From Pseudomonadota bacterium (GTDB taxonomy: Bacteria > Bdellovibrionota > Oligoflexia > Oligoflexales > Oligoflexaceae): 18,494 bases of DNA. Where the stretch lies: assembly GCA_029556045.1 (NCBI GenBank), contig JAKQGS010000295.1, forward strand, positions 1-18,494. Reading direction: 5' to 3'. The notes under the pieces are model-generated. The model was not told the origin of the DNA and searched no databases. It saw nothing but the letters and a program-made list of their open reading frames with translations. Shown here piece after piece: positions 1-18,445 of the stretch (positions are counted from its first letter, which is position 1; every line of letters begins with the position of its first letter). Both the position numbers and the translations under genes were made by a program.

Positions 1-2951
1 GCTTCCGACCCCATACCGGAGCCAAACACCAGAGGCATGGCCGCTGCCACTGTGGCCACGGAGGTCATCACAATCGGACGCAGACGGACGGGACAGGCTT
101 CCAGCAGAGCGTCGTGAATTTCCGCTGCGGTACGGGCGTTGTGTCGCGCACGCATCTGGTTGGTGAACTCCACCAGCATGATGGAGTTCTTTTTGGCGAT
201 CCCCATCAAAACGATGAGACCAATGTAGGAAAACAGGTTGAGGGAAACATTCGCACCCCACAGTGCTAAAAGGGCGCCGGTGACGCTAAACGGCAATGCC
301 ATCAGCACGGAAATGGGGTGAATGAACGAATTGAATTGAACCGCCAGGATCAGATAGGCCACTAAGACGCCGATCAGCAGTGCATCGTACAGGCTGGCAA
401 AAGCTTCCTGAAACCCGGCAGAAGCGCCCTCCAACGCAAAACTATACCCAGTTGGCAGAATCTCCTGGGCGATCGCCTGCGCACGGGACAAAACCTTCGC
501 CTGGGATTGACCGGGGGCCAGGTTGCCGTAGAGAGAGATAGCCCGTTGACGGTTGACCCGCGAGATGGACTGGGAGGCTTTACCCTCCCGGATTTTGACG
601 ATATCCGTCAGGGGAACAATATTGCCGGCACTGTTGCGCACGTAGATGGAGCGAATATCGGCTGCGGAACGGATGCGCTCATCCGGTATTTTCATGCGGA
701 TGTCATAACGGCGCCCGTCAGCGGTATATCGCCCCTGCCTGAGCCCTCCCACGGCGGCGGCGATGGTCTGTCCCACAACCTCAACGCTCACACCGCGGCT
801 GGCCATAGCGGCACGATCCGGTTCAAGAATCAATTCGGGGATACCGGTGCGGTAGTCAGTGTCAAGATCCACCGCCAAACCTTCGGATTCAAGCCTTTCC
901 ATCAGTATCTGGGTTTTTTCGTTGAGTATCACTAGGTCGGGCCCCCGCAGGCTGATAGCCACCGGGTTTTGGCGCCCCGAGCCCAGGTTGCGGGCGGAGT
1001 TATCCCGCATGCTGAGGCGGACGCCTTTGATGGTTTTAAATTTCTCCCGCAGTTCGGCCATGATGGCGGTGTGAGAACGCTGACGGGTTTCTTTGGGTTT
1101 TAATGCCAGCGGAATAAACATTTGGTTCACACTGGAGTTTGGTCCCCCGGCTCCAACGGAAACAATAAAGCCCGCCATTTCTGGAATCTCTTTCAGCACG
1201 GCTTCTACCTGTTCTGAGGCTTTGACGGTTTGTTCCAGGGAACTACCGGGGGGTGTTTGGCCACTCACAATGATGATGTCCTGATCCTGTGGTGGGACAA
1301 ACTCCTGACGGACCTGGCTGATCAACTTCAACGATAGGCCGAAAATTATGAGGGATGTAATCACCACCACGCCCTTCCAACGCAGGACAGGGCGTAACAG
1401 GCGCTGGTAGAGGTGATTAAACTTTTCAAACTGGCGGTCCAGATGGGCTTCAAACCGTCCGATCTTGGGCTCACCACTCAAAAATGCAGCAGCCCGCATG
1501 GGGGTGATGGTGACCGCCTCCAAAAGCGATAGGGCGACGGCCGCAGAAATGGTGATACCAAATTGAAAGAAGAATTTTCCCACCACCCCTTCCATAAAAA
1601 CCACCGGAATAAAGATCGCGATCACAGCCAGAGTGGCTGCGGAGGCAGCTGGAAGTACTTCCATAGCCCCTTCCAGGGCGGCACGATAGGAGCCCTTGCC
1701 CATGCGATAGTGGCGCACGATGTTTTCCAGAAGCATGATGGCATCGTCCACCACGATGGAGATTGACAACGTCAAAGCCAGCAGGGTGAACAGGTTCAAG
1801 GTAAAACCGGAAAAGGCCAGGATGATGAAAGTCCCCACGATCGACGTGGGGATGGAGAAGAGAATATTGATGGCAGCCTGATAGCTACCTAAAAATAGAA
1901 AACAGACTAGGATGGTTATCAGGCCCGCCACCCACAGTTTTTCCATGGTGAGATCAACTGTTGATTTTGTTGAACGGGTAAAATCCACATTGATGCGATA
2001 CCCGTAGCCCTTGGGAAAACGGTCTTTCAGTTCTTCGAGTTTCTTCTGCACGGCTTGAGATACGTCAACCTCATTGGTGCCCCGCTGCTTGCGAACCATG
2101 ATCGCCACCGCCTGCTTGTCTTCAAAACGCACCATGCGACGGATATCGGTCAGACCGTCTTCGACGGCGGCAACATCTTTGATATAAATCTTGCGACCGT
2201 GAATCAGCTGTCCGCCCCGGCGCAGGATCTGGATATTCCCCACCTCGTCTACATCGGCGGCCTCCCCCAACCAGCGGACCCGCAGTTCGCGAAGACCCTC
2301 AGTGAATTGGCCGGCGGCACTTTCCAGATGCTGCGAACGCAGGGCTTCGGCAACATCGGCAATGGTCAGATCAAAAGCCTTTAATTTTTCGGGATTGAAC
2401 CACACCCGCAGGCTGCGCTGACTCATGCCACCCAAGCTGACTTCACCAACACCGGGTAGAAAACGCAATTGATCCAGTAGAAAAATGTCAGACCAGTTCA
2501 GCATGTTGCGCAGACTGTCATCGGAGTAAACGGATATGATCAGGATTGGGTCTTCCTCGGGGTTTGATTTTCGTACAATGGCGGGATCAACGCCGGGTGG
2601 CATGCGGAACTGACTGATGGCGGACTGCACCTCCTGTAGGGCCACATCGATATTGCGGTCGATTTCAAACTCCAGGGTGATACGCCCGGATCCTTGCGTC
2701 GCGTTCCCACGCATCTCCTTGATGCCCTCGATGGCAAGGAGGCGTTCCTCAAGCGGGGTGATGAGCTCTGCCTCGACCACTTCCGGTGAGGCACCTTCGT
2801 AGGTCACCGAAATATTCAGAATCGGAAAATCCACGTCCGGCATCTGGCTGATGCCCATGCGATTCAGGCTGATGGCCCCAAATAGGATCAGAGCAAACAT
2901 TAAAACCCAGGCAAAAACCGGTCGCTTGAGGGATACTTCGATGAGGTTCAT
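1..2951 (-). CDS. RND multidrug efflux pump, HAE1/AcrB family (C-terminus outside window)
   Basis: This is an inner-membrane proton-driven efflux transporter of the resistance-nodulation-division (RND) superfamily. The frame is open from ATG at 2949-2951 to the left edge, giving 983 codons where the family usually has about 1,030-1,050, so about 50-60 residues are missing. The N-terminus (MNLIEVSLKRPVFAWVLM) is the typical first membrane helix. The proton-relay Asp pair of TM4 lies in VVDDAIMMLENIV at residues 402-403, matching D407/D408 of AcrB. The second-half signature GIAKKNSIMLVEF and the late motif LRPIVMTSVAT are present. Two large periplasmic loops separate the membrane halves. AAGGGA lies 6 nt before the ATG and overlaps the stop of the upstream tolC-like gene, which ends only 10 nt away, so the two are cotranscribed. 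The substrate cannot be told from sequence. It could be MdtB/MdtC- or MexF-like, but the HAE1 family assignment is secure. Confidence 0.95.
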   Translation of the reverse strand, partial: MNLIEVSLKRPVFAWVLMFALILFGAISLNRMGISQMPDVDFPILNISVTYEGASPEVVEAELITPLEERLLAIEGIKEMRGNATQGSGRITLEFEIDRNIDVALQEVQSAISQFRMPPGVDPAIVRKSNPEEDPILIISVYSDDSLRNMLNWSDIFLLDQLRFLPGVGEVSLGGMSQRSLRVWFNPEKLKAFDLTIADVAEALRSQHLESAAGQFTEGLRELRVRWLGEAADVDEVGNIQILRRGGQLIHGRKIYIKDVAAVEDGLTDIRRMVRFEDKQAVAIMVRKQRGTNEVDVSQAVQKKLEELKDRFPKGYGYRINVDFTRSTKSTVDLTMEKLWVAGLITILVCFLFLGSYQAAINILFSIPTSIVGTFIILAFSGFTLNLFTLLALTLSISIVVDDAIMLLENIVRHYRMGKGSYRAALEGAMEVLPAASAATLAVIAIFIPVVFMEGVVGKFFFQFGITISAAVALSLLEAVTITPMRAAAFLSGEPKIGRFEAHLDRQFEKFNHLYQRLLRPVLRWKGVVVITSLIIFGLSLKLISQVRQEFVPPQDQDIIIVSGQTPPGSSLEQTVKASEQVEAVLKEIPEMAGFIVSVGAGGPNSSVNQMFIPLALKPKETRQRSHTAIMAELREKFKTIKGVRLSMRDNSARNLGSGRQNPVAISLRGPDLVILNEKTQILMERLESEGLAVDLDTDYRTGIPELILEPDRAAMASRGVSVEVVGQTIAAAVGGLRQGRYTADGRRYDIRMKIPDERIRSAADIRSIYVRNSAGNIVPLTDIVKIREGKASQSISRVNRQRAISLYGNLAPGQSQAKVLSRAQAIAQEILPTGYSFALEGASAGFQEAFASLYDALLIGVLVAYLILAVQFNSFIHPISVLMALPFSVTGALLALWGANVSLNLFSYIGLIVLMGIAKKNSIMLVEFTNQMRARHNARTAAEIHDALLEACPVRLRPIVMTSVATVAAAMPLVFGSGMGSE

Positions 2952-2961
2952 GGGGTTTCCC

Positions 2962-4233
2962 TTATGGGTAAATGCCGGCGGTGGCTTTCACCGCCACAAT
3001 GTTTTGCAGAATTTGAATGGCCAGGCGATCGCGGGTGCGCCGGGTCTCTTCCAGCGTATTCTGTGCCTGCAGGACCTCAAGGCTGGTGACCAGACTGAGT
3101 GAGTAGTCGCGATTTTGTTCCCGATAGTTCCTTTCAAGAGTCTGCATGGCCTTGTCCAAAATGTCAGCCTGTTGCGCCAAATGCTCAAGATTTTGCAGGG
3201 CGCTCTCGATTTGTGTTGTGGCCAAACGATGAGCTTGGGTGTAACGCAGCTCCTGCTCGCGGGATTTGGCGGATGCTTCCGCTACTTCGGCGCGGATTTG
3301 CCCCCCTTCATAAAGGGGATAGTTCAGGGTCAGGCCGATATCCCATTTAACGGGCTCTTGCGGTCCTTCCCGCAGCACGTAGTAGTTACCTGCCAGATCC
3401 AAGCTGGGATAGCGGCCGGAGCGGGAAACCGCGATTTGGTTACGGCTGACCTCCGCCTGTTTTTGCAGAGCCAGAAGATCGGGACGTTGCGTCAATGCCT
3501 GTATCAGGGGCTCTCTGGCCGGCAGGGATGGAGATTTGGCGGGGCTGAAGTCTGGGAGGTCTTTACGACTTTGGCCAGTCAGGTATGTCAACTCCTCCCA
3601 GCCGGCGTCCAGTTGGCTGCGGGCTGCCTGCAGTTGATTGGCCACCAGGAGATTTTGCGCTTCCAGACTGAGAAGATCCGCCTGTCGGGAGCGACCAATG
3701 CGGACCCGATCAGCGATTTCACGGGTTCGTTTGCTGTTGACCTTTTGCAGTGCCTGCAAATTGCTGATGTCCCGCTTCGCGGCCACAATGCTAAAATAAG
3801 TCTGAGCGACCAGTGTGAAGAGAAGAATTTGTTCCTGATTCTGCAGAGCTTCCTGCACCTGCAGCTCTACTGTTGCCACATCCACACCCGATTGTTCCTT
3901 GTACCCATGAAAGATGGGGTGGGTGAGATTCACGCGGGTGTGGTACTGGTCAGGATCCACCCCAGGATCTCGGTCATCCAGCCGGGTATAATTGGCAATC
4001 AGATTCAACCGTGGGCCGGTCAGACTCTCGGCACGATTCAGGCGCTCGCGATACTGTTCGACGCGGGAGGACTGAATCGCCATGCTTTCCGCATGCTGCA
4101 GGGCCCCTTGGTAAAACTCCCGGATCACATTCAGGTGTTTGTCCATGACATCGGTATTACCGGCAGCTGCCATTGTTGACCCAGTAAATTGCAGTCCAAG
4201 ACCTAAAAACAATAAATAGCGGATCAAGGTCAT
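2962..4233 (-). CDS. TolC-family outer-membrane efflux protein
   Basis: This is an outer-membrane channel of tripartite efflux or type I secretion machines, 423 residues long, normal for the OEP family. A Sec signal peptide covers residues 1-24 (hydrophobic LLFLGLGLQF, then TMAAA before GN). The mature part shows the two-fold repeat of the family. Long Gln/Glu/Ala-rich amphipathic helices alternate with short beta segments such as RLNLIANYTRL and LDLAGNYYVL, followed by PLYEGGQIRAEVAEA, the usual second-repeat motif. The start ATG (4231-4233) overlaps the stop of the marR gene as ATGA, which implies translational coupling. The RND pump follows after 10 nt. Family membership is clear from repeat structure and context. 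I infer that the adjacent pump is its partner. No periplasmic adaptor gene lies between them. Confidence 0.92.
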   Translation of the reverse strand: MTLIRYLLFLGLGLQFTGSTMAAAGNTDVMDKHLNVIREFYQGALQHAESMAIQSSRVEQYRERLNRAESLTGPRLNLIANYTRLDDRDPGVDPDQYHTRVNLTHPIFHGYKEQSGVDVATVELQVQEALQNQEQILLFTLVAQTYFSIVAAKRDISNLQALQKVNSKRTREIADRVRIGRSRQADLLSLEAQNLLVANQLQAARSQLDAGWEELTYLTGQSRKDLPDFSPAKSPSLPAREPLIQALTQRPDLLALQKQAEVSRNQIAVSRSGRYPSLDLAGNYYVLREGPQEPVKWDIGLTLNYPLYEGGQIRAEVAEASAKSREQELRYTQAHRLATTQIESALQNLEHLAQQADILDKAMQTLERNYREQNRDYSLSLVTSLEVLQAQNTLEETRRTRDRLAIQILQNIVAVKATAGIYP

Positions 4234-4649: not shown

Positions 4650-4651
4650 AA

Positions 4652-4688
4652 TTAGTTACCCTATACAATAGTTGCATTGGTTAACTAA
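4652..4688. promoter_or_regulatory. Candidate MarR operator (inverted repeat upstream of marR)
   Basis: TTAGTTACCC (4652-4661) and GGTTAACTAA (4679-4688) are inverted with one mismatch around a 17-nt spacer. The spacer edge holds a smaller imperfect palindrome, CAAT-AGTTGC-ATTG, at 4666-4679. The block begins 3 nt before the marR GTG and covers its likely ribosome-binding and promoter region. This is where an autorepressing MarR protein commonly binds. Binding itself is inferred, not seen. Confidence 0.55.
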
Positions 4689-4841
4689 TAGCGATTTTAT
4701 TGTGTTAACGCAATGCCCTAAGATATTTTCCGCCCCAATAGAGGGAGGCAATGACTCTGTCGCCAGCCTGGCCAGCAATGGTCCAATCCTTGCTACCCTA
4801 AAATCACAGTGCATGGAATCATCGACAGGAGAATATTCAAT

Positions 4842-5498
4842 ATGAAATTAAACAACAGCGAACAAGAAATTGTGATTTTGGGCAGATCCTTCCATCTGAA
4901 AGGCATTTTGGGTCGACCGCCGGGAGCAAAGGCTGTGGTTGTTTTCGCTCATGGAAGTGGCAGCGGCCGCTTGAGTTCCCGCAATAATTTTGTGGCGCGG
5001 GAGCTGCAAAAAGCGGGTTTTGCCACTTTGTTGATGGATCTGCTGACTGAAGATGAGGAGGCAGATCGTAAGAATGTCTTTGACATTCACTTGTTGTCAG
5101 AGCGGCTTTTGCTGGCAAAGAATTGGGTAGCGGCGAACACTTCCGCCCTGTCCTTGGTGGGTTACTTTGGCGCAAGTACAGGTGCAGCTGCTGCCCTTGA
5201 GGCGGCGGCAAAAGATCCTGCGAACATATTTGCGGTGGTGTCCCGCGGGGGGAGACCTGATCTGGCCATGTCGTCCCTTCCACAGGTCAAGGCACCGACA
5301 CTCCTCATCGTGGGGGGGCGGGACGATGTTGTGATTGAATTAAATCAAAAGGCTTTGCGGCAATTAACCTGCGCCAAAGAACTCACCATAATTCCGGGAG
5401 CCACCCACCTCTTTGAGGAGCCGGGGGCTCTGGAGCAGGTCGCGCAAAAGGCGGCCCATTGGTTTGTCAGTCATGTGGAGGTCGTTTGGATACGCTGA
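4842..5498 (+). CDS. Alpha/beta hydrolase, dienelactone-hydrolase-like
   Basis: This is a cytoplasmic alpha/beta-hydrolase-fold protein of 218 residues. The oxyanion-loop motif FAHGSGSGRLSSRN is at residues 35-48. The nucleophile elbow is G-A-S-T-G with Ser112, the acid is in GGRDDVV (Asp161 or Asp162), and the catalytic His189 is in GATHLFEEPG. The motif VVSRGGRPDLA is typical of hydrolases often fused behind a phosphoribosyltransferase domain, but here the hydrolase stands alone. I chose ATG 4842 because AGGAG lies 10 nt upstream. An earlier GTG-type start (4809) lacks a good site. The natural substrate is unknown. The last residues (EVVWIR) look altered: a partial second copy at 6984-7066 ends in SHAEVK and stop instead. 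The final roughly 77 nt are repeated downstream of the helicase, which suggests that DNA joined here changed this C-terminus. Confidence 0.85.
   Translation: MKLNNSEQEIVILGRSFHLKGILGRPPGAKAVVVFAHGSGSGRLSSRNNFVARELQKAGFATLLMDLLTEDEEADRKNVFDIHLLSERLLLAKNWVAANTSALSLVGYFGASTGAAAALEAAAKDPANIFAVVSRGGRPDLAMSSLPQVKAPTLLIVGGRDDVVIELNQKALRQLTCAKELTIIPGATHLFEEPGALEQVAQKAAHWFVSHVEVVWIR
5406..5482 (+). repeat. Direct repeat copy A: 3' end of the hydrolase gene
   Basis: From CACCTCTTTGAGGAGCC through the Trp-Phe-Val-Ser-His codons to GAGGT, this segment recurs at 6984-7059. Over the best 70 nt (5406-5475 against 6984-7052) I count five substitutions and one single-base deletion, about 91% identity by hand. 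Similarity stops right after GAGGT. The copies lie about 1.6 kb apart in the same orientation and bracket the DEAD-box helicase gene. Confidence 0.85.
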
Positions 5499-5790
5499 AT
5501 CCCCAGGTCAGAACTGCCACCTCGGGCACCACCGGGCTAGATTGTCTACCAATGGCGGTGTGCATGAAAACGCGCCAATAAACCAAGCCGGTGATAATCG
5601 TCTCGATAACCAAAAATTCCTTATATTTTAATATTTATGCCAATAATATCATGGTCATCATTGATTTTATGAAAAGTCAGGGGTTTTTATGGTTTTAATA
5701 TGATAGAAAGCCACGCTGCATTAGATCGACCTATTTTAAAACCAAAAGTCGAGTGACGTTACCCAATATCCGACGACCAGGACCAGATTC
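5499..5790 (+). other. Intergenic leader before the DEAD-box helicase
   Basis: There is no convincing gene in these 292 bases. The first 120 bases have ordinary base composition and no clear terminator for the hydrolase gene. From about 5615 to 5760 the sequence becomes strongly AT-rich, with -10-like hexamers (TAATAT, TATGAT near 5696-5704) but no well-spaced -35. This is probably the promoter and 5' leader of the helicase gene. AGGA eleven nt before the ATG at 5791 is a plausible ribosome-binding site. Confidence 0.4.
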
Positions 5791-6891
5791 ATGAATTTAT
5801 TTTCAGCCTTTAATCTCCTACCCACCCTGCAAGCAACCTTGGCAGAAAAAAACCTCGTGACGCCAACCGAGATCCAAAAACGCGCTCTGCCGGCCTTACT
5901 CAACGGCGAATCCATCGTCGGAATTTCGGAAACGGGAAGCGGCAAGACCCTGACTTACGCCTTGCCTGTGTTGCATCGACTCAAGGTCCTCGAAAACGAA
6001 GGGCAGGCCATCACGGCCGATCGTCAACCCCGCGTCGCGATCATCGTACCGACCCGCGAGTTGGGAGAGCAGGTTTCCAAGGTTTTGAAACCCTTCACGC
6101 ATACCACGCGTTTGCGCGTTCGCACGGTTTTGGGTGGGACCGAACTCGAGGTGGCGAAACAAAATATCCAAGGTAAATTTGAGATTCTAGTTGCCACGCC
6201 TGGCCGATTGGTGAAACTTTTGGAGCGCGGATTGATCAGTCTCCGCGACGTGCGAACCTTGGTTTTTGATGAAGCCGATCAGATGCTCGATCCCGGGTTT
6301 TTAGCCGTGGCCAATCAGATTACGTCGGCCTGTGCCCCCAAGTGCCAGTTGGCCCTGTTCTCCGCTACCGTGCCGCAAGCCATGCAAGAGTTGATGGTCA
6401 AGCTCTTTTCCCGCGCCAAAGTCATTCGCAGCGCGGGTAGTCATCGCGTTGTACCCACTCTGAAAACAATCAATCGCACTGTGGTAGACGGCAAACGTTT
6501 TCCGGTCCTGGAGGATATCATCGCCAAACCCAGTGCCGGTGGCACCTTGATATTCACCAATACGCGTTCTCAATGCGACAAACTTGCCGAACAACTCATG
6601 AGCAAAGGTCTCAGCTGTTTGATATACCGTGGTGAGATGGACAAAATCGAGCGTCGCGCCAATCTGAAAGCTTTTCGGGACGGTAAAGTCAACCTGATGA
6701 TATCTACGGATCTTGCCGCCAGAGGTCTTGATGTCGAGCATATCGGACGGGTGATCAATTATCACTTGCCCAAGGATATGAACAACTACCTCCACCGGGT
6801 TGGGCGGACGGCGAGAGCTGGACGCAAAGGTTACGTATTTAACCTGGTAACCGAACGAGATCAACCGCTGGTGATCAAGCTTTCAAACTAA
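5791..6891 (+). CDS. DEAD-box ATP-dependent RNA helicase (short, RhlE/RhlB-like core)
   Basis: This is a 366-residue ATP-dependent RNA-unwinding enzyme with both RecA-like domains. Visible motifs are the Q motif TPTEIQKRALP (Gln29), motif I SETGSGKT (46-53), Ia PTREL (87-91), Ib TPGR (136-139), II DEAD (160-163), III SAT (191-193), IV LIFTNTRSQ, V STDLAARGLDV, and VI HRVGRTARAG. All catalytic motifs are intact, although motif I reads S-E where A-Q is usual. The protein stops about 25 residues after motif VI and has no C-terminal tail. It is thus close to the minimal core and may be slightly shortened. Possible roles are RNA decay, ribosome assembly or cold adaptation, and the sequence does not decide between them. 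The gene lies between two direct-repeat copies of the neighbouring hydrolase's 3' end, suggesting insertion or local rearrangement. Confidence 0.93.
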   Translation: MNLFSAFNLLPTLQATLAEKNLVTPTEIQKRALPALLNGESIVGISETGSGKTLTYALPVLHRLKVLENEGQAITADRQPRVAIIVPTRELGEQVSKVLKPFTHTTRLRVRTVLGGTELEVAKQNIQGKFEILVATPGRLVKLLERGLISLRDVRTLVFDEADQMLDPGFLAVANQITSACAPKCQLALFSATVPQAMQELMVKLFSRAKVIRSAGSHRVVPTLKTINRTVVDGKRFPVLEDIIAKPSAGGTLIFTNTRSQCDKLAEQLMSKGLSCLIYRGEMDKIERRANLKAFRDGKVNLMISTDLAARGLDVEHIGRVINYHLPKDMNNYLHRVGRTARAGRKGYVFNLVTERDQPLVIKLSN

Positions 6892-6983
6892 AACAGTCCT
6901 ATGATTTAAGAAAAAACGACCGCGCATCCTCGACCCGGTGCCCGATCTCGGTGAGGCGTTACCTCCAGCATCTGAATCAACCC

Positions 6984-7066
6984 CACCTCCTTGAGGAGCC
7001 GGGGCCCTGTAGCAGGCCGCGCAAAAAGCGGCCCATTGGTTTGTCAGTCATGCTGAGGTAAAGTAG
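6984..7066 (+). pseudogene. Decayed 3' fragment of the alpha/beta hydrolase gene (repeat copy B)
   Basis: This segment matches the last part of the hydrolase gene (5406-5482) at about 91% over 70 nt, including the codons around the catalytic His (His-Leu-Leu-Glu-Glu-Pro-Gly). A single-base deletion in the G-run near 7004 breaks the frame. The restored frame then reads WFVSHAEVK followed by TAG at 7064-7066. No start codon or upstream hydrolase sequence is recognisable between the helicase stop (6891) and 6984. It is therefore a remnant and not a gene. It could be the displaced original 3' end of the hydrolase gene or the last relic of a tandem copy. Confidence 0.8.
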
Positions 7067-7077
7067 AGTCGGGTATT

Positions 7078-7695
7078 CTATTTTTTGGTGAAAGTGGCGC
7101 TTGAACTGACATCGATCGCGCGTTTGGCGGCTGTCGATGCGTCGTGTTCATCTTCATCACTGACTGCCAGGTTCAGACTGGTTCCATCCAGGAGATAGCT
7201 GCCGTAATACTTCTGAGTCGTTGATGTCTCCAGATCTCCCTCTTCACCACATGTTTTCCCCGTGATGTCACTTGCCACGTTTTTGGTCCAGGTAACGCCG
7301 CAATAACTCTCGCTATTGAAGGCTGCTACCAGTGCATCGGTATGAGGGGTGACTTTGAAACTTGACTTCGTGGAATAGTAATTTTTTGTTCCAGTTGCTG
7401 CGCCATCACCCTCGATGACAAAGTTTTCCACCACATTGAATGAAAGGTACGAATCGCTGGCATCACAGCCAGCGGTGCTGAATAACGTCATATTAGAATC
7501 CATTTTAGATCCGCTCACCACCATTTCAATCGTTGCAGATTCCCCATCGCTATCGTCGACGCATCCACCATCCCAGGTGCCTTCGATTTCAGTGGTGACA
7601 GATTGGTTGGTTGATTTATTGTCTTCTGACCCGCATCCGACAATCGCAGATATTCCAAATAGGACTAAACAGAGTGACAAAGTCTTGATCCACAT
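7078..7695 (-). CDS. Small secreted lipoprotein, function unknown
   Basis: This is a 205-residue precursor with a lipoprotein signal peptide. A lone Lys precedes the hydrophobic stretch LSLCLVLFGISAIV, and the lipobox V-G-C puts the lipidated Cys at residue 21, followed by Gly-Ser-Glu-Asp. The mature protein is rich in Ser, Thr, Asp and beta-forming residues. It has an EGTWDGGC motif near its start, reminiscent of small lipocalin-like barrels, and four further cysteines that could form two disulfides. I do not recognise a family. The ATG at 7695 is chosen because AGGGAG lies seven nt upstream and the signal peptide then begins correctly. An upstream in-frame extension would precede the signal peptide and overlap the neighbouring gene. 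The gene appears monocistronic. Confidence 0.75.
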   Translation of the reverse strand: MWIKTLSLCLVLFGISAIVGCGSEDNKSTNQSVTTEIEGTWDGGCVDDSDGESATIEMVVSGSKMDSNMTLFSTAGCDASDSYLSFNVVENFVIEGDGAATGTKNYYSTKSSFKVTPHTDALVAAFNSESYCGVTWTKNVASDITGKTCGEEGDLETSTTQKYYGSYLLDGTSLNLAVSDEDEHDASTAAKRAIDVSSSATFTKK

Positions 7696-7731
7696 CGATA
7701 AACTCCCTGAAATGGTGATTAATGCATTCAT

Positions 7732-7867: not shown

Positions 7868-8590
7868 TTAGGGTTGGGCGACTTCCTTGTCATTCTGGTC
7901 AAAGTGACCGTCGAAGCAAGTCTCCACCTCCGACTTGGTGAAAAATTCGCCGTTGCAGTATGAGCAAACGTATTTGGCGCCATTGCGAATAAACGGTTTT
8001 TTCCATTGGGCCTTGGAGCGGCGGGTGTCGGCTGAGGTATCCCCTTTGCCTTTGGCGACCTTGCCGTGGGCGACGTCATCACCGGTGGCTGGTGTCATCA
8101 CCTCGGCGGTGGCACCGGATGATGTATCTTCCACAGTTTGTGGTGTGGCAGTATCTTCTTCCATGTTGGAACGCATTTTATAGCGGGGTACCCCCTGGGA
8201 GCGCATGGCGACCAGTTGGGGGCGTCGCTGGCTGGCGTTACCCCGAACGGGGGCGTTTTGCAGATCTTTCAATACCCTCAGGCCAAATGCATTGGTTTCC
8301 TCCGCCAAGTGTTTGCACATATCGGCGCAGTGGATACCTGCCTCCTCCGAAGCGTGTTCGCGCATGCAAAACCGGCAGCGATAGACGTTCTGCTGGGAAG
8401 CCTTTTTATAAACGGTGAGGGGGTACGAGTGTAGTGCCGATTCCCAGCAGGATTCCACGCAATCATAAGCATCGTTGTAATGATCAAAATGCCCACGGCA
8501 GATACCACAGGTAAAGTGTTTGCCTTTGAATACCTTGCGAATGATGGCCTGTCCGTGGATCTGGGGCTTCACTTTGAACGCACGATTCAT
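7868..8590 (-). CDS. Hypothetical protein with three zinc-finger-like C-x2-C-x12-C-x3-[C/H] modules
   Basis: I do not recognise the family of this 240-residue protein. It has three modules with identical spacing: C28-C31-C44-C48, C72-C75-C88-C92 and C209-C212-C225-H229. Each is C-x2-C-x12-C-x3-[C/H], with an aromatic two residues before the first Cys, and Phe, His and Phe at the fourth residue after the second Cys. This is the spacing of classical C2H2 fingers, with Cys replacing the first His. Modules 1 and 2 form an N-terminal pair. Module 3 is near the C-terminus, after a low-complexity linker (about 113-195) rich in Ala, Thr, Asp, Lys and Arg. There is no signal peptide or membrane segment, so it is cytoplasmic. 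The start at 8590 is preferred because GAGGA lies eight nt upstream. A start five codons earlier lacks a good site. Zinc binding is likely; nucleic-acid or protein binding is inference only. Confidence 0.8.
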   Translation of the reverse strand: MNRAFKVKPQIHGQAIIRKVFKGKHFTCGICRGHFDHYNDAYDCVESCWESALHSYPLTVYKKASQQNVYRCRFCMREHASEEAGIHCADMCKHLAEETNAFGLRVLKDLQNAPVRGNASQRRPQLVAMRSQGVPRYKMRSNMEEDTATPQTVEDTSSGATAEVMTPATGDDVAHGKVAKGKGDTSADTRRSKAQWKKPFIRNGAKYVCSYCNGEFFTKSEVETCFDGHFDQNDKEVAQP

Positions 8591-8680
8591 GCTGGCAATC
8601 CTCATGATGGATGGGCGCGTTTAATGCACAACCTATCGGAATAAAGAAATAAAATATGAGGATTTTCTTGTATCGAAAAA

Positions 8681-16035: not shown

Positions 16036-16359
16036 ATGTGGAAAATATTTAACATAGAATCGGGAAAAATCTTAAAAGCAGGATTTGATGACGAGGATAC
16101 CGCCAAAGAATGGCTGGAAAATCGTGACGTCGCCGCCGTTGAGGATTTTGCCATCGAAGAGATGGATCAGGATGAAGAAGAAGAGTGGCGGGAAAATGGT
16201 GGCGATGAGGACGAGGAAGACGTGGCGGACGACGATGAAGACACCTACGACCCCAAGGAATTTGGGGATGACGACCTCATGGGCGGTGGCTACGATGAAG
16301 ACGACGACGAAGAGTCGGAAGATGAGGGTGACGATTACGAAGAAGAAGATGAAGACTAG
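16036..16359 (+). CDS. Extremely acidic small protein, function unknown
   Basis: This 107-residue protein has 53 Asp/Glu residues and only about 7 Lys/Arg. The first ~33 residues form an ordinary-looking module: an aromatic beta-hairpin (MWKIFNIESGKILKAGF) followed by a helix (DTAKEWLENRD). From about residue 36 the chain is mostly Asp/Glu with Gly and Tyr and is surely disordered. There is no signal peptide, so it is cytoplasmic. GGAG nine nt before the ATG, an upstream promoter candidate and a strong terminator 19 nt after the stop mark it as a real single-gene unit. The Asp/Glu codons are a mix of GAT, GAC, GAA and GAG and not a simple repeat, which argues that the acidity is selected. Nucleic-acid mimicry, chaperoning of basic proteins or metal buffering are all possible and none is shown. 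Confidence 0.8.
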   Translation: MWKIFNIESGKILKAGFDDEDTAKEWLENRDVAAVEDFAIEEMDQDEEEEWRENGGDEDEEDVADDDEDTYDPKEFGDDDLMGGGYDEDDDEESEDEGDDYEEEDED

Positions 16360-16435: not shown

Positions 16436-18445
16436 TCACCGCAGCAGGGACTCGATCGTTTTTTGCAGTTGGTGCAGCGCCCACTCCAGTTCCGACTCTG
16501 ATGTGGTCAGCGGTGGCACTAGGTAGATCGTATTACCCAGAGGTCGCAGGAACAGGTTAAATCGTTGAGCCGCGGTGGCAATCGTGGTGGCGTCCGCACT
16601 GAAATAATGACCCAGACCACTGTCTCTCAATTCAAAGGCCAGAATACCCCCCATGGCACGAGGATTGGCGAGACAAAGGCTGGTTGAATAGCTGTTGATC
16701 CAGTCAAGAAAAGCTTTCTCTATCCGTCGACAATTGGTCAAGACGTCATCCTGCGCATAGATATCCAGTGTTGCCAGTGCTGCGGCGCAGGCAATGGGAT
16801 TGGCGGTGTAGGAATGTCCGTGCAGGAGGGCCTTACTCTTGTCTTCCGCCAGAAAGGCTTCATAAATCGGAGCTTGAGCCAGGGTGATCGCCAAGGGGAG
16901 ATTGCCACCGGTGAGTCCCTTGGCCATGCACAGGATGTCTGGGACAATGTCGGCTTTTTGCGCCCCGGTCATGAAACCCAATCGACCCATACCGGTAAAC
17001 ACCTCGTCGAAGATCAGGGGAATTTTGTAGTGGCGGCAGAGTTCTGCCAATTTTTGCAACCACAGTAGCGGTTGCATGGTCATGCCGGATGCCCCCTGGA
17101 CCCAGGGTTCAATGATGACTCCCGCCAAAGTTGTGTGATGCTGTGCAAAGAGCTGTTCCAGTTCGCGGACACGTTCCGGTAGGGCATCAATTCCCCGCGG
17201 GCATACCGCGGATGGATGATGGGTCACCTGCGGGGCTGTCACGGTGCGAAAGAGCAGTGGTTCAAAGGCCTGGTGAAAACCGCTGCTGCGACCCACCGCC
17301 ATCGCCCCAAACGTATCGCCATGGTAACTTCCGGCAAAATCCATCAGCAGCGTGCGCTGGGACTGTCCGCGGTTATGCCAGTATTGCACCACCATCTTCA
17401 GAGCCACTTCCACTGCTGTGGAACCGTTGTCGGAATAGAAGACTTTGGCAAACCCGCCATCGATGGACTCCAGCAATCGGCGGGCCAGCGTGGCGGCACC
17501 CGCATGAGCGGTGCCGGCAAAAAGCACGTGATCGAGGCGGGCCTGTTGTTGTGCCATCGCTTCACGGATCTCGCGCCGCCCATGTCCCACCGTATTCACC
17601 CACCAGGAAGAAGTGCCGTCAAACAGTCGGGTGCCATCGGTGGTTTCCAGCCATACCCCCTGAGCCCGAGCCAGCGGTAGCGGGGGTGACTGGGTGCGGT
17701 GTTGGGTATAGGGGTGCCAGCAGTAAGCGGTGTCATCCGCCAGCCAGGGGGCTGAGTCTGTGCGATCGTAGTGCTTCTGCATCGCATTGAGCAGGAATTG
17801 CCCCAGTCGGAGGGCCTCGCTCGGTGATTCGTCGCTGGTGGCAAGGTCTGTCGGTGGCAGAGTCAAAAACGCCATGTCCGGAAACATACGTTGCAGGCTT
17901 CGGAGATTGGCCGCATGGGGCTCACCGTTCAACACCACCCCGAGGACTGGAAGGTTATGTCCTTTCAGTCGATGAAGGGTCAGTGCGGTGTGATTCAGAG
18001 TGCCCAAGCCGGATCGTGCCACCAACAGAACCGGACATCGGGTGGCTAAGAGCACGTCCAACCAGGTTTCATTTTTTTCGTTGAGGGGTACTTCCAGCCC
18101 GCCGGCCCCTTCCACAAGGGTGATGGTCTGGGAGGCATCGGAGGGCCATTCAGCAAGAATCCCTGGTATGGCGGGGGCTGTTGCTCCCTCATGGGCCGCT
18201 GCCTGGTCCGGGGACGCCGGAAGGGCATAAGACCATCCAGTCGGGCGTATGGTCAGCGCATCACCTCCCCATCGACGCAGCACTGCTTCATCCGGCGCGG
18301 CATTGCCGGTTTGCACTGGCTTCCAATAAAAAACATGCGGGAAGAGATCAGACAAACCGCGGGCCAGCAGGGTGGCAACATGGGTTTTACCCACATCGGT
18401 GTCGGTGCCAAGAATGAAAACCGAGGAAGAGGGAGAAGAGATCAC
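16436..18445 (-). CDS. Fused dethiobiotin synthetase / DAPA aminotransferase (BioD-BioA)
   Basis: This is a 669-residue bifunctional biotin enzyme. Residues 1-223 are BioD: P-loop GTDTDVGKT (13-21), KPVQTG (42-47) and EGAGGLEVPL (112-121), for ATP-dependent ring closure of DAPA to dethiobiotin. Residues from about 235 are BioA, a PLP-dependent class III aminotransferase turning KAPA into DAPA with S-adenosylmethionine as amino donor. Its motifs are WHPYTQ (243-248), DGTSSWWVNTVGHG (276-289), SYHGD (373-377), IFDEVFTG (478-485), the PLP lysine Lys509 in MAKGLTGG, and HGHSYTANP (542-550). All catalytic motifs are intact and the junction is in frame without a stop, so this is a true fusion. The order BioD-then-BioA matches the plant and fungal BIO3-BIO1 fusion. 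The start is GTG, overlapping the upstream stop as GTGA. A terminator follows. Confidence 0.95.
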   Translation of the reverse strand: MISSPSSSVFILGTDTDVGKTHVATLLARGLSDLFPHVFYWKPVQTGNAAPDEAVLRRWGGDALTIRPTGWSYALPASPDQAAAHEGATAPAIPGILAEWPSDASQTITLVEGAGGLEVPLNEKNETWLDVLLATRCPVLLVARSGLGTLNHTALTLHRLKGHNLPVLGVVLNGEPHAANLRSLQRMFPDMAFLTLPPTDLATSDESPSEALRLGQFLLNAMQKHYDRTDSAPWLADDTAYCWHPYTQHRTQSPPLPLARAQGVWLETTDGTRLFDGTSSWWVNTVGHGRREIREAMAQQQARLDHVLFAGTAHAGAATLARRLLESIDGGFAKVFYSDNGSTAVEVALKMVVQYWHNRGQSQRTLLMDFAGSYHGDTFGAMAVGRSSGFHQAFEPLLFRTVTAPQVTHHPSAVCPRGIDALPERVRELEQLFAQHHTTLAGVIIEPWVQGASGMTMQPLLWLQKLAELCRHYKIPLIFDEVFTGMGRLGFMTGAQKADIVPDILCMAKGLTGGNLPLAITLAQAPIYEAFLAEDKSKALLHGHSYTANPIACAAALATLDIYAQDDVLTNCRRIEKAFLDWINSYSTSLCLANPRAMGGILAFELRDSGLGHYFSADATTIATAAQRFNLFLRPLGNTIYLVPPLTTSESELEWALHQLQKTIESLLR

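Follow-up and report, generated by a model that had tools for sequence, protein, structure and literature searches.

The locus considered here raises the question of how a gene for a DEAD-box RNA helicase came to lie between an intact hydrolase gene and a second, partial copy of that gene's 3' end. Throughout, the window denotes the whole stretch of DNA analysed (18,494 nt), in which the features relevant to this question are, in order:

4842–5498, plus strand: dienelactone-hydrolase / alpha-beta hydrolase family gene (218 aa, intact; last codons beyond the repeat; PF01738, 42.5 bits)
5404–5482, plus strand: repeat copy A, the 3' end of the intact hydrolase gene
5483–6981, plus strand: segment between copies A and B, comprising the hydrolase end, an AT-rich 292-nt spacer (42% GC), the helicase gene and a 90-nt spacer
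5791–6891, plus strand: core-only DEAD-box RNA helicase gene (366 aa, intact; Pfam DEAD 141 bits, Helicase_C 99 bits; relatives called RhlE by some sources)
6982–7059, plus strand: repeat copy B, a remnant of the hydrolase 3' end (1-nt deletion, TAG, F191L)
7060–7066, plus strand: right flank of copy B; joined to the frame of copy A it reads VK and then TAG (7064–7066), the presumed original hydrolase stop
7078–7695, minus strand: small convergent gene, lipoprotein-like by eye, with no NCBIfam or PHROG match

The initial annotation described a same-strand repeat of 5406–5482 at 6984–7059, about 91% identical over 70 nt. The pair is present almost exactly as described, and alignment refines its limits to 5404–5482 and 6982–7059, with 71 of 79 columns identical (89.9%) and with seven substitutions and a single 1-nt deletion in copy B. 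When the 3 kb on either side of the helicase gene were compared with each other, the repeat scored 104 bits, against 30.1 bits for the best of 200 Markov-shuffled flank pairs and at most 26.5 bits when the procedure was repeated on 12 other window genes (with shorter flanks near the window ends), and the only other direct repeats of at least 25 nt in the whole window were two 26-nt pairs of 77% identity. The A/B repeat is thus far above chance. Since the window may be a lone contig, an assembly artefact was considered; we regard this as most improbable, as copy B has diverged and decayed and is no mere copy of A, and as the helicase and lipoprotein-like genes are probably adjacent in another strain also. 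The closest relatives of the two proteins, P0121 for the helicase (98%) and P0241 for the lipoprotein-like protein (92%), have the same listed length for their longest contig, 13,078 nt, and it is from this common figure that we infer the adjacency, which argues against misassembly and would date the event before the strains parted. The lipoprotein-like protein has one further homologue at E ≤ 0.001 (32%), and a slightly longer frame for it (7078–7731) gave no Pfam match.

Copy A forms part of an open, intact coding sequence whose protein ends SHVEVVWIR, with the tail encoded beyond the repeat, in agreement with the original description of an in-frame copy ending in EVVWIR. The frameshift originally reported for copy B is likewise present, arising from one lost base, and is accompanied by an in-frame GAG to TAG change and by a TTT to CTT change (F191L) at a residue of the HLFEE motif that is kept in all 120 hydrolases listed, the window's own included. 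Because of the frameshift, the in-frame TAG and the loss of an invariant Phe, copy B is a decaying remnant. Four of its seven substitutions, counted base by base, are nonsynonymous (P 0.06 under omega 0.1, P 0.94 under neutrality), a pattern that fits neutral decay and that does not firmly separate diverged alleles from decay following duplication. In contrast to the lost Phe of HLFEE, the two copies agree at every base of a 19-nt stretch (CATTGGTTTGTCAGTCATG) in the tail, where conservation is lower; copy B thus derives from this very hydrolase gene, or from an allele very close to it, and has since drifted without coding constraint. All differences between the copies would also be explained by later decay if a helicase-bearing fragment had been inserted, in a single event, at a staggered break whose fill-in generated a 79-nt target duplication, the copies then being identical at birth. 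Target duplications of this length are, however, very long, and the end of the block beside a stop codon would be a coincidence, so that we consider such an origin distinctly unlikely. As a separate observation, substitutions at 7015–7033 in copy B create a perfect 6-bp stem (GGCCGC/GCGGCC) with no T-run after it, probably by chance. A role for copy B as a transcription terminator was entertained and rejected: each copy has a 6-bp stem, but what follows it is CATTGGTTTG and not a T run.

The flanks of the repeat bear upon which of the two gene ends is native. Splicing the frame of copy A, by script, to the right flank of copy B yields a protein ending HWFVSHVEVK, with an in-frame stop two codons past the shared block. 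This TAG (7064–7066) lies 11 nt from the stop of the lipoprotein-like gene at 7078, and because an in-frame stop there forms a compact convergent pair with that gene, the arrangement suggests that the right side of copy B is the old gene end and that the tail of copy A came from the insert side. The right edge of similarity lies at most 7 nt from the stop on the B side, as would be seen if two homologous genes were each followed by unrelated DNA. Of 119 homologue tails scored, 12 have 8 residues after the Trp, as in the joined version, and the 11-residue tail of the present hydrolase is found in the window's own protein only; as a pointer to the native end, tail length is nevertheless weak evidence, since 41 of the 119 tails exceed 11 residues. 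The native end SHAEVK originally assigned to copy B therefore stands in part: the right edge is native-looking, but SHAEVK is readable only past the frameshift, and copy B encodes no intact protein end. The accompanying proposal, of a displaced old end and a replacement tail on the present gene, gains support from the native-looking stop beside copy B, from the decay of that copy and from the position of the helicase in its tree (see below).

Accordingly, our preferred reading, likeliest on grounds of parsimony although held at a little short of even confidence, is that the layout is a recombination scar, left when helicase-bearing DNA entered at the hydrolase gene and displaced the old gene end downstream. 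The ancestral hydrolase gene would have led straight into the convergent lipoprotein-like gene, and the incoming DNA would have carried the 3' part of a hydrolase gene and, after it, the gene for the DEAD-box helicase. A first join, within or upstream of the hydrolase gene, would have been made by homology, and a second, non-homologous join would have cut into the end of the old hydrolase gene, at 6981/6982. Copy A, with its tail EVVWIR, would be the end that came in and that now serves the gene, and copy B would be what is left of the old gene, its final 78 nt, pushed 1.6 kb downstream and decaying. The arrangement expected of such a scar, namely an orphan 3' remnant downstream of an intact homologue and a new gene, is the one found, and the significance of the repeat, the three lesions of copy B, and the in-frame stop formed by the joined flanks, with a tail length known in homologues, all favour it. 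We infer the direction of the event, its mechanism (homology-facilitated illegitimate recombination) and a donor whose hydrolase gene was closely related. Against this, copy B comprises only 79 nt, and its substitutions cannot tell orthologue divergence from decay after duplication.

The helicase itself is presumably an ordinary RNA helicase. Both DEAD and Helicase_C are above the Pfam gathering scores, as in core-only DEAD-box RNA helicases (RhlE in some sources), many relatives being of about 366–380 aa and some of them named as Bdellovibrionales MAGs; it differs in scoring under the threshold for each NCBIfam family shown (25 of 33). A maximum likelihood tree was built from 66 rows (61 of the 120 listed homologues, four from the order of the nearest, Oligoflexales-type genomes, and the window protein), with a bootstrap not fully settled. 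The window helicase fell in a group of 29 rows, three of which are named Bdellovibrionales or Bdellovibrionaceae, and the four order homologues stood together in the other, 37-row group (support 100/98). The window helicase is therefore no simple vertical counterpart of those of its order, and its placement hints at horizontal acquisition, although old paralogy, which is possible, would give the same split; the tree does not pin down a donor group, because rows named Bdellovibrionota, Bdellovibrionia and Deltaproteobacteria are also found on the side of the order homologues. Matches to the helicase are confined to four of the 43 genomes of that order (E ≤ 1e-80) and to four of 58 genomes at phylum level (E ≤ 1e-140). 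Both its separation from the order homologues and this rarity favour displacement by incoming DNA, although a donor close at the hydrolase does not by itself account for a helicase of another lineage.

Apart from a 100% match (cluster P0001), relatives of the hydrolase among the matches listed reach at most 69% identity (over 89% of the query), the best-scoring of them 67%; it is matched in seven of the 43 order genomes at E ≤ 0.001 (five at E ≤ 1e-50, two weak) and in five of 58 genomes at phylum level (E ≤ 1e-50). In the hydrolase tree a long branch, without a starred set, leads to the window protein, and the tree is uninformative as to its origin. In the comparison of codon use that the initial annotation suggested, the helicase is atypical relative to the other window genes (z -3.1), but so are the hydrolase (z -4.8) and the lipoprotein-like gene (z -5.2), so that the insert is not singled out, whilst oep (-0.7), znf (-0.1) and marR (+2.1) show no deviation in that direction. 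The atypical codon use of hydrolase and helicase is in keeping with the displacement reading; with the lipoprotein-like gene deviating too, the codon data suggest that several accessory genes form a patch here, of which the helicase is one. At 4650–4841, the promoter region from which marR and the hydrolase gene diverge, two GTTAAC palindromes were seen by eye and are possible MarR-type operators. Beside the MarR gene, 3–4233 (minus strand) holds an RND-type pump gene (ACR_tran) that runs off the window and an outer-membrane efflux gene (PF02321), with no membrane-fusion gene between them.

The initial annotation had also raised the possibility that the segment is a cargo remnant of a mobile element. 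On such an account a site-specific integrative element would have entered at the hydrolase 3' end, supplying copy A, displacing the original end as copy B and carrying the helicase as cargo, which would explain why a block is duplicated at a gene 3' end with the gene kept intact and why the displaced end retains a native-looking stop. The results did not bear this out, and we judge it unlikely. Family scans confirmed that, as first stated, no integrase lies inside the 1.5-kb segment, and in the window proteins that they covered they detected neither an integrase nor any further mobility gene; five other ORFs of at least 60 aa touching the insert matched no Pfam or PHROG family, the helicase being the sole family match there. 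The window contains no tRNA, and neither the repeat core nor the helicase matched viral contigs. A search for terminal inverted repeats in the outermost 40 nt at either end, made both within and beyond the direct repeats, gave 5 nt as the longest exact inverted match; one 15-nt inverted pair lies within the 5' spacer. Helicase matches in plasmid records (three, 34–35% identity) and in phage records (43, all below 60%; 33–35% in the best 10 of 43) reach at most 35.4% in these three and ten rows, and the 39 plasmid records with a hydrolase reach at most 60.5% in the best 10 of 39. Furthermore, in the four relatives found to carry the helicase, comparison of the 3 kb before the gene with the 3 kb after it gave no comparable repeat; the best match was of 34 nt (82%, E 0.002, in L094), and L096 has a 23-nt match at the corresponding place.

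Relatives were also examined for the locus as a whole. The window PolA is nearest to Oligoflexales-type genomes, with best identities of 52–59% (L001–L004), whose polA flanks also hold citrate synthase, EVE, tatC and the 8750 gene; oep, marR, the hydrolase, the helicase and the genes at 7078 and 7868 were not found near polA there. Neither hydrolase nor helicase occurred in the flanks of any of the best 80 of 579 PolA loci compared, many of these flanks being short. Within the window itself, 7868–8605 (minus strand) encodes a protein without a Pfam or NCBIfam match but with paired Cys motifs by eye, and 16036–16359 (plus strand) another without such matches and with a very acidic tail by eye. 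A single 669-aa gene occupies 16436–18445 (minus strand); residues 242–664 match bioA (TIGR00508), and the N-terminal part is, by eye, BioD-like, so that we take the product to be perhaps a BioD-BioA fusion.

Hydrolase and helicase were adjacent in none of nine regions of relatives, and the 120 hydrolases and 120 helicases listed have no longest contig of the same size in common. One genome (G022) has both on different contigs, and another (G019) has the helicase and, on another contig, a partial, weaker hydrolase match; genes beside the helicase in relatives are DUF1456, MFS, YchJ-like and GreA/GreB-like, with no hydrolase among them. Neither a close donor nor an empty-site genome was found among the genomes searched, so that the direction proposed above for the event is tentative. 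A tandem duplication of a hydrolase-helicase unit, followed by loss of most of one hydrolase copy (and of any extra helicase) such that its last 78 nt survive as copy B, would give an identical final layout, would let copy B decay like any redundant copy and would make integrase, terminal repeats and donor unnecessary. We hold this to be possible but less likely than displacement by incoming DNA: it requires at least two events, the repeats of the window include no trace of a second helicase or of other hydrolase parts, and the tree position of the helicase is not itself explained. It is very doubtful that insertions recur at the hydrolase 3' end in this lineage, with single cargo genes swapped in together with a replacement tail to leave gene-end scars that have no integrase of their own; among five relatives no second hydrolase end was found besides the self match.

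We see no sign of a new mechanism: most likely the locus represents an ordinary recombination scar that adjoins an acquired helicase gene, and probably no function attaches to the scar. It provides a readable case, from a poorly sampled Oligoflexales-like lineage, of a single gene settling beside another with part of the old gene left behind, and would acquire greater significance only if the same site had taken different cargo genes in different strains.

Two known systems offer comparison. With integrative elements at gene 3' ends the locus shares a direct repeat of the gene end flanking the insert and a gene that acquires a new tail, but here the insert is of 1.5 kb, there is no integrase and the tail is not restored exactly. 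The closer precedent is provided by the type VI secretion system (T6SS) effector-immunity arrays of Vibrio cholerae, in which, in the portion of PMC5361080 available, displaced effector 3' ends and immunity genes lie downstream; homology-facilitated illegitimate recombination is there put forward tentatively and the process called rare, and the part of PMC3240628 available indicates that such recombination does occur. The present case differs in being a single locus, with a plain RNA helicase beside a 78-nt non-coding remnant, and the Vibrio mechanism is, in that text, proposed rather than demonstrated. Nevertheless, the two share their defining arrangement, in which one or more new genes stand ahead of the shifted-back 3' end of an earlier allele.
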